A stretch of DNA of 64,000 bases from Marinobacter similis (GTDB lineage Bacteria > Pseudomonadota > Gammaproteobacteria > Pseudomonadales > Oleiphilaceae), in NCBI RefSeq assembly GCF_000830985.1, contig NZ_CP007151.1, positions 3,782,001-3,846,000 of the forward strand. The letters are read 5' to 3'. Made by a program: the position numbers and the translations under genes. The notes beneath the pieces are model-generated. The model had not been told where the DNA came from and ran no database searches. It saw only the letters and a program-made list of their open reading frames with translations. Positions 14,599-28,938 of this stretch are shown here, in pieces. Each line of letters opens with the position of its first letter. Position 1 is the first letter of the stretch.

Positions 14599-15273
14599 CT
14601 AGATCTCGGCCCAAAATCGCTGGAGATTGGCCAGGGACTTGGTGAGTAGATCGAACTCGGCGGTTTTGCCTTCGCGTTCAAACAATTGGCGCCGGGCGGT
14701 GTCGAGATCGAACAGCACTTCCCGCTGGGCCGGGTCGCGGATGGTGCTCTGAATCCACCCAATGGCGACACGGCGCTGGCCCTGGCTGACCGGTTCAACC
14801 CGGTGCAGGGTGGAGGAGGGATAGACTACCGCCGAGCCCGCCGGCAGTTTGTATCTTTGTTCGCCGGCGGTGGTTTCAGTCACCAGTTCGCCGCCCTCGT
14901 AGCTGTCCGGGTCATCCAGAAACAGGGTGAAGGAGATATCCGTGCGCAGCCGGCCTGGCCCCCGGCCCATCACCGGGTCATCCACGTGGTTACCGTAGGT
15001 CATGCCGTCGCGGTAACGGCTGAACATTGGGGGCGTCATCTTGGCGGGCCTGACTGCCATCTGGAACACCGGGTGTTCGGTCAGGGCCTTTTCCACTTCT
15101 GCTCGCAGGGCACGGGCGGCGTCGTCGGCCATCTGCATCTGTTCGTTGTTCTTGACCAGGCGAGCATGCCAGCCGGCGGTCTTGCGACCGTCATCGAAGC
15201 TGCCATTGTCGAGCGCGGCGCGAACGCGTTTCAGCTGCTCGTCGCTCAAAATCTGGCCGATACACAGAATCAT
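14599..15273 (-). CDS. PKHD-type Fe(II)/2-oxoglutarate hydroxylase (PiuC/YbiX-like)
   Basis: 225 residues from ATG 15273, which has a GGAG site just upstream; an earlier in-frame ATG (15375) lacks one. The iron ligands are His96 and Asp98 (NHVDD) and His157 (STLHR), with Arg167 for 2-oxoglutarate. PiuC/YbiX proteins are cytoplasmic oxygenases commonly found with iron-uptake receptors and controlled by iron, but no such receptor is adjacent here. Divergent from the Gly-Glu-His repeat lipoprotein at 15409, with which it may share a control region. Confidence 0.9.
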   Translation of the reverse strand: MILCIGQILSDEQLKRVRAALDNGSFDDGRKTAGWHARLVKNNEQMQMADDAARALRAEVEKALTEHPVFQMAVRPAKMTPPMFSRYRDGMTYGNHVDDPVMGRGPGRLRTDISFTLFLDDPDSYEGGELVTETTAGEQRYKLPAGSAVVYPSSTLHRVEPVSQGQRRVAIGWIQSTIRDPAQREVLFDLDTARRQLFEREGKTAEFDLLTKSLANLQRFWAEI

Positions 15274-15408
15274 GGTGGGCTCCAATTCGTAATACGAATA
15301 ATTTGCAAATAAGACAGTTATTGATTCATCATGCACCACCATTGACCGACCTTCAATATTGCCGTCGTTGGCCAAGCGAAACGGCGGAGTTCAGACAGGA
15401 GCAAGTGA

Positions 15409-16443
15409 ATGAAAAACCAGACTGTAAAACTGTGGACCGGCATCGGTATGGCCACACTTATCGCGGGCTGCGGCACCCTGGGCGGTGAAGGTGGCGAAGG
15501 CGGAGAGCACTACGACGATCAGCTGCACGCCTCTTCCCACGGCGGCGAAGGTGGTGAAGGCGGCGAACACCACGGCGGCGAAGGCGGTGAAGGTGGCGAA
15601 CACCACGGCGGCGAAGGCGGTGAAGGTGGCGAACACCACGGCGGTGAAGGTGGTGAAGGCGGCGAACACCACGGCGGCGAAGGTGGTGAAGGCGGTGAAC
15701 ACCATGGCGCCGAAGCCGGTGCAGCTTTCAGTTATTTCGCGGCCGGCGGTGAAGGTGGCGAAGGCGGAGAAGGCGGAGAAGCCGGCAGCTCTGTTTCTTC
15801 GGTCACCTCTGACGGCGCCTATGTCGCCATGCTGCAGATGATGCAGGGGCACCTGCTGGCGGCCCGCGAACTGATCAAATCCGGTGAGGTGGCCGAAGGC
15901 CGTCCGCACCTGACGCACCCCTGGGTTGAGGTTTACCCGATGGCCGAGCCGGGCCTGGAGCATCGTGGCCAGAATGGCCTGGGTGGACACCTGAAGGCAC
16001 TGGCGGAAAAATCCGGTGGGATCGAGGACTGGAGTGATATCAATCAGCAGTTCCAGGCGGCCTGGGTTGCCATCGAAAAAGCCGCGAATAACGTCGGTGA
16101 AAAAGGTGTGAGCAGCGCAACCGTTTCCAAGGTCGTCCTGTCGCTGACCAAGCAGGCGGTGTTGGAGTATGACGAGGCGCTGGAAGAGGGCCAGTTCGTG
16201 GCTGTGCACGAGTACCAGGACGGTCGCGGCTTTGTCCGTGCCGCCCGCGAGTACCTGGACGGTCAGCAGGCGCTGCTGAAGCGGGACAACAAAGAGGCCT
16301 GGCGCGTAGCCAGCAAGGCTCTGGATGATCTGCAGAAAGCCTGGCCGACGGCCGTGCCGCCTGAGCAGCCGGTGGTTCCGGTAGCTAATCTGTACGCGGC
16401 CCAGGCCCGGTTGGAATTGGCGCTGGCACCATATCTGTACTGA
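15409..16443 (+). CDS. Lipoprotein with Gly-Glu-His tandem repeats
   Basis: 344 residues. The N-terminus is a lipoprotein signal (LIAGC lipobox, Cys about 21). Residues about 25-105 are built of an 11-residue unit GGEGGEGGEHH, then a second Gly-Glu block. The C-terminal 220 residues are mostly helical, without a motif I recognise (VAMLQMMQGHLLAARELIK onward). The Glu/His repeats suggest binding of divalent metal ions at the cell envelope; this is inference. The start ATG follows an AGGAGCAAGTGA site. Divergent from an iron-dependent hydroxylase, and followed by a hairpin terminator. Confidence 0.85.
   Translation: MKNQTVKLWTGIGMATLIAGCGTLGGEGGEGGEHYDDQLHASSHGGEGGEGGEHHGGEGGEGGEHHGGEGGEGGEHHGGEGGEGGEHHGGEGGEGGEHHGAEAGAAFSYFAAGGEGGEGGEGGEAGSSVSSVTSDGAYVAMLQMMQGHLLAARELIKSGEVAEGRPHLTHPWVEVYPMAEPGLEHRGQNGLGGHLKALAEKSGGIEDWSDINQQFQAAWVAIEKAANNVGEKGVSSATVSKVVLSLTKQAVLEYDEALEEGQFVAVHEYQDGRGFVRAAREYLDGQQALLKRDNKEAWRVASKALDDLQKAWPTAVPPEQPVVPVANLYAAQARLELALAPYLY
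15541..15705 (+). repeat. Five tandem 33-bp coding repeats
   Basis: Five consecutive 33-bp units each encode GGEGGEGGEHH. They differ only at third positions of Gly and His codons (GGC/GGT, CAC/CAT). A sixth, separated unit (15481-15513) encodes the same peptide ending in His-Tyr. The synonymous variation shows the repeats have aged under protein-level constraint and are not a recent slippage product. Confidence 0.95.
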
Positions 16444-18394: not shown

Positions 18395-18847
18395 CTATTG
18401 GTTGTGCTCTGAAAAAATCCGAGTTTGGCCCTCGTTATTGAACAGAAGCACCTGGTAAGGGTCTTTGCGGTCCCCCATTTCCATGCCTGGTGAACCGATA
18501 GGCATGCCCGGTACGCTGAGGCCTCGAGCTTTTGGCGCGTCGGCAATCAGGCGTTGAATATCGCTGGCAGGCACGTGGCCTTCGATGACGTAGTCACCGA
18601 CAAAGGCGGTGTGGCAGCTTGCCAGGGCTGGCGTCAGTCCAGCGTCGCGTTTGATCGGATTGAGGTTGTGGGTCTCGGTAACGTCCACTTCAAAGCCGTT
18701 AGCTTCAAGATGTTTGACCCAGTCTTCGCAGCAGCCGCAAGTAGGCGATTTGTAGACATGAATGTTCTGGGCCGCTCCGGCAGCCAGCAGCGGCGTACTG
18801 AATCCCAATGCCGCGGTCAGGGCCAGTCCAAGTGCTTGTGATTTCAT
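18395..18847 (-). CDS. DUF411 periplasmic metal-binding protein
   Basis: 150 residues from ATG 18847, preceded by AAGGAC. A cleavable signal peptide (…LLAAGA) is followed by the DUF411 motif YKSPTCGCCEDW, a CxCC metal-binding site, and later LASCHTAFVGDYVIEGH, GMPIGSPGMEMG with Met residues. DUF411 proteins often lie with copper-resistance genes, and the Cys/Met/His pattern fits periplasmic Cu(I) binding. Last gene of the merR-copA-peptide-DUF411 set, 25 bases after the 38-residue peptide. Confidence 0.9.
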   Translation of the reverse strand: MKSQALGLALTAALGFSTPLLAAGAAQNIHVYKSPTCGCCEDWVKHLEANGFEVDVTETHNLNPIKRDAGLTPALASCHTAFVGDYVIEGHVPASDIQRLIADAPKARGLSVPGMPIGSPGMEMGDRKDPYQVLLFNNEGQTRIFSEHNQ

Positions 18848-18872
18848 GAGAATGTCCTTCTGCAATAGAGCG

Positions 18873-18989
18873 TTAGTGTTGGCTATGGTCTTGATCAGAG
18901 CTTTCGCCGGTTGAGGACGATAGCCAGAACCACCAGACAATTGCGGCCATGAGGGCGATGCCACCAGCGTTGACCATAAAGGTTTCCAT
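18873..18989 (-). CDS. 38-residue membrane peptide coupled to copA
   Basis: The peptide starts [20 protein letters not shown] and then turns polar (STGESSDQDHSQH), giving one membrane helix and a His/Asp-containing tail. Its ATG overlaps the copA stop as TGATG, and AGGAGG lies nine to ten bases upstream, so translation should be coupled to copA. The segment resembles the membrane anchors of some cupredoxin-domain proteins, but no cupredoxin follows. Possible role as a small partner of the copper ATPase; inference from position only. Confidence 0.7.
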   Translation of the reverse strand: METFMVNAGGIALMAAIVWWFWLSSSTGESSDQDHSQH

Positions 18990-21594
18990 CAGTTCCGCGC
19001 CTCCTGTGCAGTTTGATTTGATTTTGTCATTGCCTGCGCTGGCTTCTGGCTTGTTCTAAAAAATCGTAATCGGTTGGCGTTGGACACCACGGTGACCGAC
19101 GACAGCGACATGGCCGCCCCCGCCAGAATCGGACTCATCAGGATGCCCCACACCGGGTACAGCAGGCCGGCGGCGACCGGAATGCCCAGACTGTTGTAGA
19201 CAAAGGCACCGAACAGATTCTGGTGAATGTTTTTTACGGTCGCGCGGGATATTTCGATGGCATCCGGCACCCCATGCAGGGAGCCCCGCATCAGGGTAAT
19301 CCCCGCACTTTCAATGGCCACGTCAGTGCCGGTTCCAATGGCAAAGCCGACATCGGCAGCGGCCAGGGCGGGGGCGTCGTTAATCCCGTCACCGACCATG
19401 GCCACGGTGTAGCCCTTACCCCGCATGGCACTGACCACCTCGGCTTTGTCCTCCGGGAGCACTTCCGCCCGGTAGTCGTCAATGCCGGCTTTGGCTGAAA
19501 TAGCCTGGCGGTCGCGTCTATGTCACCGGTTACCATCATCACCTTGATCCCGGCCGCGTGCAGGCGTTCGATGGCGGCCCGGGAGTCGGCTTTGATGGCG
19601 TCGGCGACACCGATAACCCCTAAGACGTCGCCATCAAGAGCCAGGAACAGGGGGGTGCCAGCCTCCTCGGTAATGGCCCGGGCGGCTTCATCCAGATCCG
19701 GAAGTTCGAGCCCCTCATTCTCCAGCCAGCGCCGGTTGCCCAGGCGCAGCGCCTGACCCTGGAAGCTGCCCCGGACGCCCTTACCATTCAGGGCTTCGAA
19801 GTCAGTGACCTTCTCGATGGCCACGTTCTGCTCGCTGGCTTGGGTGACAATGGCTTCTGCCAGCGGATGTTCGGAATGTTGTTCGAGCCCGGCGGCCAGA
19901 CCTAGCAGTCGGTCTTCATCGCCATCCACCGCATGCACCCGGGTAACGGTTGGGCGGCCTTCGGTAATAGTGCCGGTCTTGTCGAGAATTACCAGGTCGA
20001 GCTTGCCTGCCGTCTGCAGGGCATCACCCTGGCGAATCAGTGCCCCGTATTCGGCGGCCTTACCGACACCAACCATTACCGACATGGGCGTGGCAAGCCC
20101 CAGGGCACAGGGACAGGCGATGATCAACACGGTGGTGGCCGCCACCATCATATGCACCACGGCCGGTTCTGGTCCGAGGTTGAACCACACCAGCGCCGCT
20201 ACCACAGAAATCAGCATGACCGTGGGCACAAACACCGAGGAAATCCGGTCCGCCAGCCGACCGATCGCCGGCTTGGAGCCCTGGGCCTTCTTCACCAGTT
20301 TGATGATTTGAGCCAGGGCGGTGTCACTGCCTACACGCGTGGCCTCGTAGATGATGCTGCCGTGGGTGTTCAGAGTGCCCGCGGAGACGCGATCGCCCTC
20401 GCCTTTGCTGACCGGCATGGGTTCACCGGTGAGCATGCTTTCATCGATTCGGGTGTTGCCCTCGGAGATGACCCCGTCCACTGGCAATTTCTCACCCGGA
20501 CGAACCCGGATGCGGTCGCCCTTGACGACCTCCTCTACCGGGATATCCCGCTCCTCACCGTCACGCAGTACGCGGGCGGTTTTTGCCCGCAGATCCAGCA
20601 ACCGCCGGACCGCTTCCGAGGTCTTGCCTTTGGCCCGCAATTCCAGGGCCTGGCCGAGGTTGATCAGGCCAATGATCATGGCCGAGGCCTCGAAATACAC
20701 ATGCCGCGCCATCTCCGGCAACGCATCCGGGATACTGGACACCACAATGGAATAGAGCCAGGCGGTGCCGGTACCCAGGGCAATCAGCGTATCCATGTTG
20801 GCGTTATGGTGCCGGAACGCCTTCCAGGCACCGGTGTAGAAATGCCCGCCGGTGGTGGCCATCACCAGCAGAGTAAGTCCGCCAAGCCCAAGCCAGAGGA
20901 TTTGATTGGCCTCGGTCACCATCATGGTGCCGAACCCCATGCCCCATACCATCAGGCCAACGCCCAGGGTCAGACTCACCGCCATCTTGATCAAAAGGTT
21001 ACGGTAGAGGGCGCGGTCCTCTTCCTGCCGGCGCTCGTCGGCCTCATCTTCATTCTCAATGACCCGAGCGCCATAGCCGGCGCTCTCGACAGCCCGGACC
21101 AGTGCCTGTGGGTCGGCATGGCCGGTCGCGGTGGCGGTATTATCGGCCAGATTCATGTGCGCCCCGGTTATCCCGGGTACCGAAGTCAGCGCCTTTTCGA
21201 TGGTGCTCACACAGGAAGCGCAGGTGGCCCCGCTCACCGACAGGGCAACCTGATCGCCGTTATCCGCCGAAGGGCTGGCGCCGGCGCTGGCATCCTCGGC
21301 CTGGGCCTTGGCAGTGTCGGCCGGCGGCGCTGATGCCTCGTGGCTCTCGCAGCAACTGGCTGGTTCGGCCTGTGAGATCGGTTGGGCCGGGTACCCGGCT
21401 TCAGAAACCCGGCGCGCCGCGTCGTCACGGTCAACATGGTCTGGCAGCGCGACCGTATGCTGTTCCAGATCCACCTCAACCAGGCTCTGATCGCCAGTGA
21501 CCGGCTCCAACGCGGTACGAATTCGGTTGGCGCAGCCCTGACAGGTAGCGCCGGAAATGGACAGGGCGGTGTGCAGTGTCTTCGGCTCAGGCAC
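18989..21594 (-). CDS. copA: Cu(I)-exporting P1B-type ATPase (frameshifted near C-terminus)
   Basis: Two N-terminal HMA domains have CQGC (18-21) and CASC (125-128). Then come eight membrane segments, the TGE motif (389-391), the metal-site CPC (494-496), the phosphorylated Asp538 in [13 protein letters not shown], and GDGINDAP. After the frameshift near 19505 (GCCAGGCT needs one more G), the last helices show YNxxGIP and MSxxSV, as in Cu(I) pumps. The enzyme uses ATP to move Cu(I) out of the cytoplasm. A Cys-Cys/His-rich linker joins the two HMA domains. It begins seven bases after the merR gene ends. Confidence 0.94.
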
Positions 21595-21600
21595 GGTTGT

Positions 21601-22047
21601 TCACTCCTCGTTTCCATTCACGGTTGATGGACTTGCCGCGGGCGTGTCGTCCCAATGCTCAATCAGCCGGCAAATGGTGTGGCCATCCGGCGTACCGTCG
21701 GGCATGTCCTGCCAGGCACTCAGCGCAGAGGTCATGCGTTGGCGCAGTGCCTGCAGTTCGCTGATTTCCCGTTCAACTTCAGCCAGGCGCTGCTCAAAAA
21801 CCTCGCGCACCATGGGGCAGGGCGAATGATGATCCTCGGCCTGATCCAGAATGGCCCGGATTTCCGGCAACGAAAATCCAAGCTGCCGGGCCTTGCGTGC
21901 AAAACGCAGGCGCCTGAGGTCATCGGCGTCGAACTGCTGGTAGTTGTTGTCCGGATTCCGGCTCGGATTTAACAGCCCTTCACGGGTGTAGAACCGCACG
22001 GTATCCGGATTGACGTCAGCAGCGTTTGCTATGTCTTTGACTTTCAT
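21601..22047 (-). CDS. MerR family metal-responsive regulator
   Basis: 148 residues. The N-terminal winged helix-turn-helix (KVKDIANAADVNPDTVRFYT) is followed by a long dimer helix with a Cys at its start (HHSPCPMVREVF) and a second Cys near the C-terminus (GHTICRLIEHW). MerR-type regulators with such Cys activate metal-export promoters with over-long spacers. It is directly upstream of copA on the same strand, so copper is the probable signal, though the Cys placement is nearer to Zn/Cd/Pb-type members than to classic CueR. Confidence 0.88.
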   Translation of the reverse strand: MKVKDIANAADVNPDTVRFYTREGLLNPSRNPDNNYQQFDADDLRRLRFARKARQLGFSLPEIRAILDQAEDHHSPCPMVREVFEQRLAEVEREISELQALRQRMTSALSAWQDMPDGTPDGHTICRLIEHWDDTPAASPSTVNGNEE

Positions 22048-28716: not shown

Positions 28717-28938
28717 AACATACTCTCGCTGCCAAGGAAACGCCGGTTACAGCCGGTGCCGGACCGAGCATAACGCCAGCTAGGAATTGTACGACCAGCT
28801 AGGAATCGTACGAATAGTAGCATGAACGTCCGGGCAAAGAAGTAGGTACTGTAGTTGCAGACGACATATCTGTTGATTCGGTTGGCTGCCCAGCGGCGGC
28901 TTCGTTAAACTTCGCGCATTGACCACAGGGAATTCAAC

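Follow-up and report, generated by a model that had tools for sequence, protein, structure and literature searches.

The closest described systems to the locus reported here are the couples CciT-CciO, Fiu-YbiX and PiuA-PiuC, in which a PKHD-type 2OG oxygenase is found together with a TonB receptor. As far as the accessible text of two reports goes (PMC12004947, PMC12004943), cciO is a direct Fur target in Caulobacter, the TonB receptor CciT is inactive in iron uptake without CciO, and the models for CciO, PiuC and YbiX have these enzymes make, break or oxidise a siderophore-like compound. One of the CciO models listed in the accessible part of PMC12004947 is a cell-tethered iron ligand, and according to that of PMC12004943 CciT is the neighbour of 87.7% of the CciO genes. 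In view of this proportion, an arrangement in which the neighbour is an exported arm protein has to be the rarer one overall.

The window, by which we mean the whole analysed stretch of 64,000 nucleotides of Marinobacter similis (contig NZ_CP007151.1, positions 3,782,001 to 3,846,000), carries a PKHD-type 2OG oxygenase gene which resembles these systems in its link to iron and in Fur control, the latter being shown for cciT/cciO and suggested here. In contrast to them, its partner is an exported protein with a Gly-Glu arm and not a TonB receptor, and the pair-linked oxygenases lie largely on a separate branch. No description of the arm protein-PKHD pair was found in the literature searched, whose coverage is thin for subscription papers; a PKHD gene beside a TonB receptor is already known, and the association of PKHD with a Gly-Glu motif protein seems to be a variant not described before. 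The features of the locus are as follows.

14599..15273, minus strand: PKHD-type 2OG-Fe(II) oxygenase, 224 aa, ATG at 15273, assigned by family models
15291..15309, no strand assigned: Fur-like box AATACGAATAATTTGCAAA, a 19-mer between the divergent genes
15409..16443, plus strand: exported Gly-Glu-His arm protein, ATG start, 344 aa (ORF list, translation)
15409..15471, plus strand: signal peptide with lipobox I18-A19-G20-C21 (from the sequence, by eye)
15481..15513, plus strand: degenerate first unit GGEGGEGGEHY (from the sequence)
15541..15705, plus strand: five exact contiguous 33-bp units, GGEGGEGGEHH, residues 45-99 (TRF, unit comparison)
15724..15744, plus strand: AFSYFAA cassette, a conserved hydrophobic break in the arm
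15745..15780, plus strand: (GGE)4 run, where PKHD-linked homologues retain a Gly-Glu motif
15811..16440, plus strand: C-terminal all-helical domain (C-domain), 8 helices, invariant His/Glu/Asp (predicted structure, alignment)

The arm protein, its oxygenase neighbour and the Fur-like box

The arm-protein gene and the oxygenase gene are divergent with 135 bp between them (15274-15408). A preliminary description of this DNA, made from the letters alone, had proposed a lipoprotein in which five exact GGEGGEGGEHH units with degenerate flanks follow a lipobox, and the sequence as well as TRF bear this layout out (period 33, 5.4 copies, 93% matches, score 302). Five nucleotide sites vary among the five units, all of them in third position and all synonymous, for which a chance of (1/3)^5 = 0.004 can be estimated. 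The differences had earlier been read as showing selection on the peptide; the count stands (5/5 third-position), while as proof of selection it is weak and partly circular, because the units were chosen as peptide-perfect, and it lends the idea modest support. Across the genus the region ahead of the C-domain spans 86-227 residues, and the unit number varies freely among close relatives. Long ORFs are also open in other frames at the repeat (15391-16209 on the minus strand, 15485-15841 on the plus strand), which we take for mechanical by-products of the repeat. In nearly all genus homologues the AFSYFAA cassette breaks the Gly-Glu arm, and counterparts with similar aromatic spacing occur in L029, L071 and L072. 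The full-length structure model has a pLDDT below 50 over residues 1-132 and is uninformative on the arm; its Foldseek list is a mix of EfeO and alpha-catenin-type folds. Elsewhere in the window, TRF reports an isolated 19-bp tandem duplicate of two copies at 28776-28813.

By the lipobox rule, which asks for a lipobox with Cys, the window protein qualifies as a lipoprotein (IAGC, residues 18-21), and its signal peptide agrees with the envelope export claimed before. The lipoprotein label holds for the window protein but not for the family at large: a lipobox is seen in 5 of the 28 genus copies, and the remaining 23 have, by eye, an ordinary-looking signal peptide.

As had been recognised in the preliminary description, the divergent neighbour is a PKHD-type 2OG-Fe(II) oxygenase. 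It scores 293.6 bits against NCBIfam NF003974 (cut-off 143), matches the Pfam families 2OG-FeII_Oxy_3 (3.4e-15) and PKHD_C (25.1 bits, cut-off 22), and stays under the cut-off of NF003972, YbiX proper (184.7 vs 399). Solved relatives are 3dkq (3e-50) and PiuC (9e-47; 9ghl, 9qn0-9qn4). The HxD...H motif forms the iron triad of such enzymes and is present as H96, D98 and the distal H157 in the alignment to 3dkq. A longer ORF, from a TTG and extending to 15375, is unlikely because it would run through the Fur-like box.

On one side of the window oxygenase lies the arm protein, on the other an RNB/S1 gene and then a GGDEF gene, and no CciT match lies within 1.5 kb of the oxygenase (L150). Among 13 pair-bearing relatives (among L089-L107), viewed up to 6 kb, a single weak CciT match was seen (L094; 1.3e-6, about 3 kb from the PKHD gene). 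Apart from the pair itself and ORFs antisense to PKHD, no gene is shared by at least three PKHD-linked loci in a survey whose ORF calling was strict enough to overlook some copies of these two genes. A second PKHD, with 45% identity, is encoded elsewhere in the window genome, in a classical cluster with a TonB receptor and an LldD-like FMN enzyme (L147, 1164000-1176500); among the 28 pair-bearing genomes of the genus, two have an additional PKHD. A likely copper-handling cluster with a DUF411 protein and a MerR regulator occupies 18395-22047 of the window, and its P-type ATPase ORF, judged by eye, is apparently split or frameshifted near 19290-19460.

The intergenic span had been given correctly as 15274-15408 in the preliminary description, which named it as a place for Fur sites, and a Fur-like candidate indeed stands there at 15291-15309. 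This 19-mer is kept in 28/28 genus loci amid variable sequence, and its core ATTTGCA is likewise found in 28/28. Scored against what we take to be the Fur consensus, the best sites of the genus reach 10-13 of 18; the window site reaches 11 of 18, which alone is not significant. At 13 other loci, a set that does not comprise L075, L110 and L111, 11 sites score 12 or 13 and the near-copies L076 and L077 score 10, near chance. The summed scores observed were reached in 0 of 1000 dinucleotide shuffles, both for the 28 genus loci and for the 13 other loci. A scan of the own genome with the box pattern, allowing two mismatches, returned 18 places including the window site vs 8 for the reversed control, and only two of the other places stand, by eye, beside iron genes, namely ExbB/ExbD-like genes and a TonB-receptor-like gene. 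The conserved box suggests that the pair is probably controlled by Fur and turned on when iron is short.

Distribution of the pair and of the Gly-Glu motif

The C-domain is present in 28 of 124 genus genomes, in 30 of 163 family genomes, in 22 of 390 genomes sampled in the order (18 of these outside the genus) and in 8 of 369 genomes sampled in the class, the last count including the window genome and two partial matches that are cytochrome c-FTR1 fusions. An orthologous PKHD (at least 57% identity) is present in exactly the same 28 genus genomes and is adjacent in all 28. Within the genus the pair is therefore present or absent as one unit, and the same gene pair, sought in other genomes along the line of the preliminary description, also recurs in other genera. 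In one further genome, G097, there is just an oxygenase of 42% identity, adjoining a TonB receptor. Genome G012 (L029/L107) has a divergent pair with 31% and 57% identity and EGGEGGEHGKHH units; both of its genes cluster with those of family f36, so that the two may have been acquired together by transfer. A contig with the label Rhodopirellula sp. MAG (L035, NZGD01000124.1) bears a typical Marinobacter arm protein-PKHD locus and is probably mis-binned.

The stretch from the signal peptide to the C-domain was read in 53 homologous loci. The oxygenase adjoins in 44/44 loci with a Gly-Glu motif and in 0/8 loci without it; L114 was left out of the latter because the contig does not reach its upstream side, and its readable part shows no motif. 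Automatic scoring of the 53 loci gave a PKHD in 42/42 arm-positive and 2/11 arm-negative ones, after which two loci were reassigned by hand to the motif-bearing group: L029, where an internal Met had been taken as the start, and L085, whose GGEGE run counts 5 residues at a threshold of 6. Restricted to loci outside the genus and minus two near-copies, automatic scoring yields 13/0/1/9 (Fisher p 1.2e-5). L075-L077 are near-copies of one another, and the eleven loci L030-L040 were uncounted, ten being genomes already counted and L035, with arm and PKHD, resembling L009. In six armless order genomes there was no PKHD match anywhere at E 1e-20; in class genomes without the motif only the near flanks were covered. 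Part of the co-occurrence of motif and oxygenase stems from linkage, because the genes are adjacent.

It is the Gly-Glu motif and not histidine that tracks the oxygenase. Most genus members have long His-rich arrays, the His count of the arm within the genus ranging from 2 to 28, and L013, L016 and L028 have Gly-Glu arrays with few His (2-3). In other genera the motifs are short, GEGEGEG or EGGEGGEG, and accompanied by 0-3 His (L073-L079, L082, L083, L110, L111). Six PKHD-linked loci (L073, L074, L076, L082, L085, L110) combine short Gly-Glu motifs with 0-1 His, and at L085 the PKHD adjoins a minimal motif, GGEGEG. Many His (8-22) are kept outside the genus at four loci (L065, L070, L071, L072). 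L080 has six His, no Gly-Glu and no PKHD. The preliminary description had treated His, together with Glu, as the working residues of a metal-capturing arm; as His is unconserved in PKHD-linked relatives, metal capture by His was rejected as the core function. For homologues in the same neighbourhood, the His half of that claim fails, whereas the Glu-Gly half passes at 44/44 PKHD-linked loci, and the weight it had placed on the gene pair proved justified, the oxygenase adjoining all 44 Gly-Glu loci.

On the C-domain tree of 32 rows the arm state has to change five times, and well-supported branches force four of these changes; a 30-row tree, which leaves out the long-branch armless rows L113 and L088, gives four changes, of which three are forced. 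In both trees L080 is placed next to three congeneric relatives that do have the arm. Since presence of the PKHD gene matches the arm state in every row, each motif change goes with a gene change, and motif and oxygenase have changed state together at least three times. Alternatively, a single deletion could have removed the gene, with the motif decaying later; such decay would in turn imply that the motif serves no purpose once the enzyme is gone.

The tree of 46 PKHD proteins is divided by a 100/100 branch into 25 pair-linked oxygenases and 19 of the 21 others, the exceptions on the pair-linked side, both with long branches, being L157, which adjoins a TonB receptor, and L160, for which neither kind of neighbour is in view. 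The bootstrap of this tree had not settled; a rebuilt tree, leaving out L160 and the near-copies L148 and L167, agrees and keeps the split (25 plus L157 vs 17). Because L157 stays on their side, the pair-linked oxygenases are not a strict clade. Comparison of the 25 pair-linked proteins with 17 others (TonB receptor matches at 16 of them, only an LldD match in view at L163) gave four group-specific sites, 26 (F/W), 85 (S/N), 115 (F/A) and 172 (G/F or M); judged from the alignment, the small-to-large and large-to-small swaps at the last two of these would be in keeping with a pocket of altered shape. The pair-linked PKHDs are also less acidic (mean net charge -2.3 vs -5.9), a difference too weak to argue from. 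Among the best 30 PKHD loci of the order, taken with 1.5 kb flanks from 89 genomes, 12 adjoin the arm protein, 16 show a match to a TonB receptor, 2 have neither of them and none both.

The C-terminal domain and its iron contexts

The C-domain had been called unrecognised, which is right in so far as Pfam, NCBIfam and PDB sequence searches with protein or profile gave nothing specific; it can nevertheless be tied to iron uptake. Over its 210 residues, eight helices are predicted (pLDDT 87 for the best AlphaFold2 model, 78 to 60 for the other four). In our own numbering, which starts at D135 of the protein, the residues G13, H14, L21, H33, H36, P37, E40, L61, E119, Y120, E134, Y135, Q136, D137, G140 and F141 are invariant in 28 diverse C-domains; the most divergent row, L113, lies outside this alignment and does not keep them all. 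The polar invariants fall in helices 1, 2, 5 and 6 of the model and could form a metal site.

The structure prediction called for in the preliminary description gave a weak match: the first two Foldseek rows are EfeO/EfeM (7wgu, 7q1g; E 0.04-0.06, TM 0.36-0.42). The fourth row is Algp7, E being 0.04-0.17 over these rows, and an alpha-catenin-type fold ranks between. VIA-align retrieved mostly unrelated helical bundles, EfeO/EfeM not being among the 50 rows listed. Like EfeO/EfeM and the imelysin-like M75 proteins, whose features we take from the accessible text of PMC9174327 and PMC3143127, the C-domain is exported and all-helical, has eight predicted helices that would be compatible with two four-helix bundles and occurs in an iron context. 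Unlike them, it has no sequence-profile similarity and its fold match is weak; GxHxxE, the M75 motif in the accessible text of PMC3143127, is absent, the conserved pattern being HxxHPxxE. Peptidase_M75 (PF09375) gave no match over the cut-off in the own genome and is not among the 25 families listed, of 28, for the 28 diverse members at E 1, and hhalign of the C-domain vs 16 M75 domains gave a probability of 0.1. With neither a profile match nor GxHxxE, membership of Peptidase_M75 was rejected by sequence. Given the weak Foldseek match and the lack of sequence-profile kinship, the domain may work like EfeM and should not be called one.

The second half of the C-domain shares the pattern EY...AV..G...EY(Q/A)(D/E)...F with the N-domain of cytochrome c-FTR1/EfeU proteins. 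With the profile of the 28 C-domains, E values of 8.7e-5 and 5.3e-4 are obtained for the N-domains of two cytochrome c-FTR1 fusions, and hhalign of the C-domain gives a probability of 93 (E 2.9e-7) against these two and of 71.5 (E 3.6e-5) against five further ones, the latter having been found with one of the first two as query and not with the C-domain profile. Pfam confirms the fusions, with no Pfam family reported at the N-terminal domain. Seven such proteins (L115, L116, L202-L206) have an N-terminal periplasmic domain similar to the second half of the C-domain. In contrast to the fusions, the window protein is not joined to a cytochrome or permease, and the match covers only about 50 residues.

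At 3 of 6 order loci (L100, L102, L103) the gene of the armless relative follows immediately downstream of one for a periplasmic binding protein (SBP_bac_6), with ABC ATPase ORFs close by. The binding protein of L103, the one compared with solved structures, is FutA/IdiA-like (2e-103 to 2pt1, 'Iron transport protein'); the best NCBIfam models for the three are 2-aminoethylphosphonate binding proteins, far below cut-off. The armless homologues may represent an accessory protein, as yet without a name, of FutA/IdiA-type Fe(III) ABC transporters. Unlike them, the window gene has no such gene adjacent, and within up to 6 kb of the PKHD-linked loci a related binding-protein ORF appears in 1/13 (L093), about 3.5 kb beyond the PKHD. 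The Fur-like box, the binding-protein and FTR1 contexts and the PKHD relatives CciO, PiuC and YbiX, themselves enzymes of iron uptake, strongly suggest an iron role of the pair, in agreement with the iron link drawn in the preliminary description.

Candidate function and its alternatives

The explanation we favour, with about even confidence, is that the two genes serve iron acquisition and that the oxygenase modifies the Gly-Glu motif of its partner before this is exported. Under iron shortage Fur would leave the shared box and both genes would be made; the cytoplasmic PKHD oxygenase would meet the newly made partner protein ahead of export and hydroxylate its Gly-Glu motif, most likely at Glu (or His). 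The target would be Glu then Gly, the feature that accompanies the oxygenase in every locus read. The modified, acidic and flexible arm would serve as an iron-gathering ligand at the envelope, where the helical C-domain would hold the iron or hand it on. The short motif, elsewhere as little as GGEGEG, would have been amplified in Marinobacter and some relatives to tandem arrays that are often rich in His. Collagen prolyl and lysyl hydroxylases act on the residue preceding Gly in repeats, so that hydroxylation of Gly-Glu would be chemically familiar; we know of no precedent for 2OG-oxygenase action on Gly-Glu itself, nor of Glu as a target. Only tentatively do we propose the more specific form, in which the PKHD is a protein hydroxylase of the Glu-Gly motif and the hydroxyglutamate/hydroxyhistidine arm a protein-borne, cell-tethered iron chelator.

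It is also possible, if rather doubtful, that the two proteins are partners in iron uptake with the oxygenase acting on a small iron ligand, made or imported, which the exported protein captures, the arm being a plain iron sponge. The iron evidence fits this equally well, and it matches the siderophore-compound models for CciO, PiuC and YbiX in the accessible text of PMC12004947 and PMC12004943. However, it leaves unexplained why even a motif as short as GGEGEG (L085) and the oxygenase are linked in every locus read while armless relatives are without the enzyme, and likewise why most of the pair-linked oxygenases share a branch and four group-specific sites.

A His/Glu arm for the capture of divalent metal (Zn, Ni, Cu, Fe) on a lipoprotein, with a neighbour that is only co-regulated, would make sense of up to 28 His in the arm region and of the DUF411 and MerR genes, probably a copper cluster, 2-6 kb away in the window. 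We regard it as unlikely, for many PKHD-linked relatives from outside the family have almost no His, three genus members (L013, L016, L028) have just 2-3, L080 has 6 His with neither Gly-Glu nor PKHD, and the lipobox occurs in 5/28 only. Finally, the link of motif and oxygenase might reflect no more than shared history; slippage would then have produced the repeat as low-complexity sequence, and the arm would only be a passive spacer. Unit number and length do vary freely among close relatives, like those of any tandem array. Against this speak the three or more changes that motif and oxygenase share on the tree, the retention in distant genera of a motif that is short and barely repeated, and five tandem copies that encode one peptide despite five nucleotide differences; we hold it to be very improbable.

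For the PKHD oxygenases, PiuC, YbiX and CciO among them, the neighbouring gene of the pair supplies a concrete candidate for a protein substrate. The locus also reveals a domain without a name, exported and linked to iron, which turns up again next to genes of Fe(III) ABC transporters and, over part of its length, in FTR1 permease fusions. If the oxygenase does hydroxylate the Glu-Gly motif of its partner, the arm would be a genetically encoded substitute for a siderophore, made by a new kind of protein hydroxylation.
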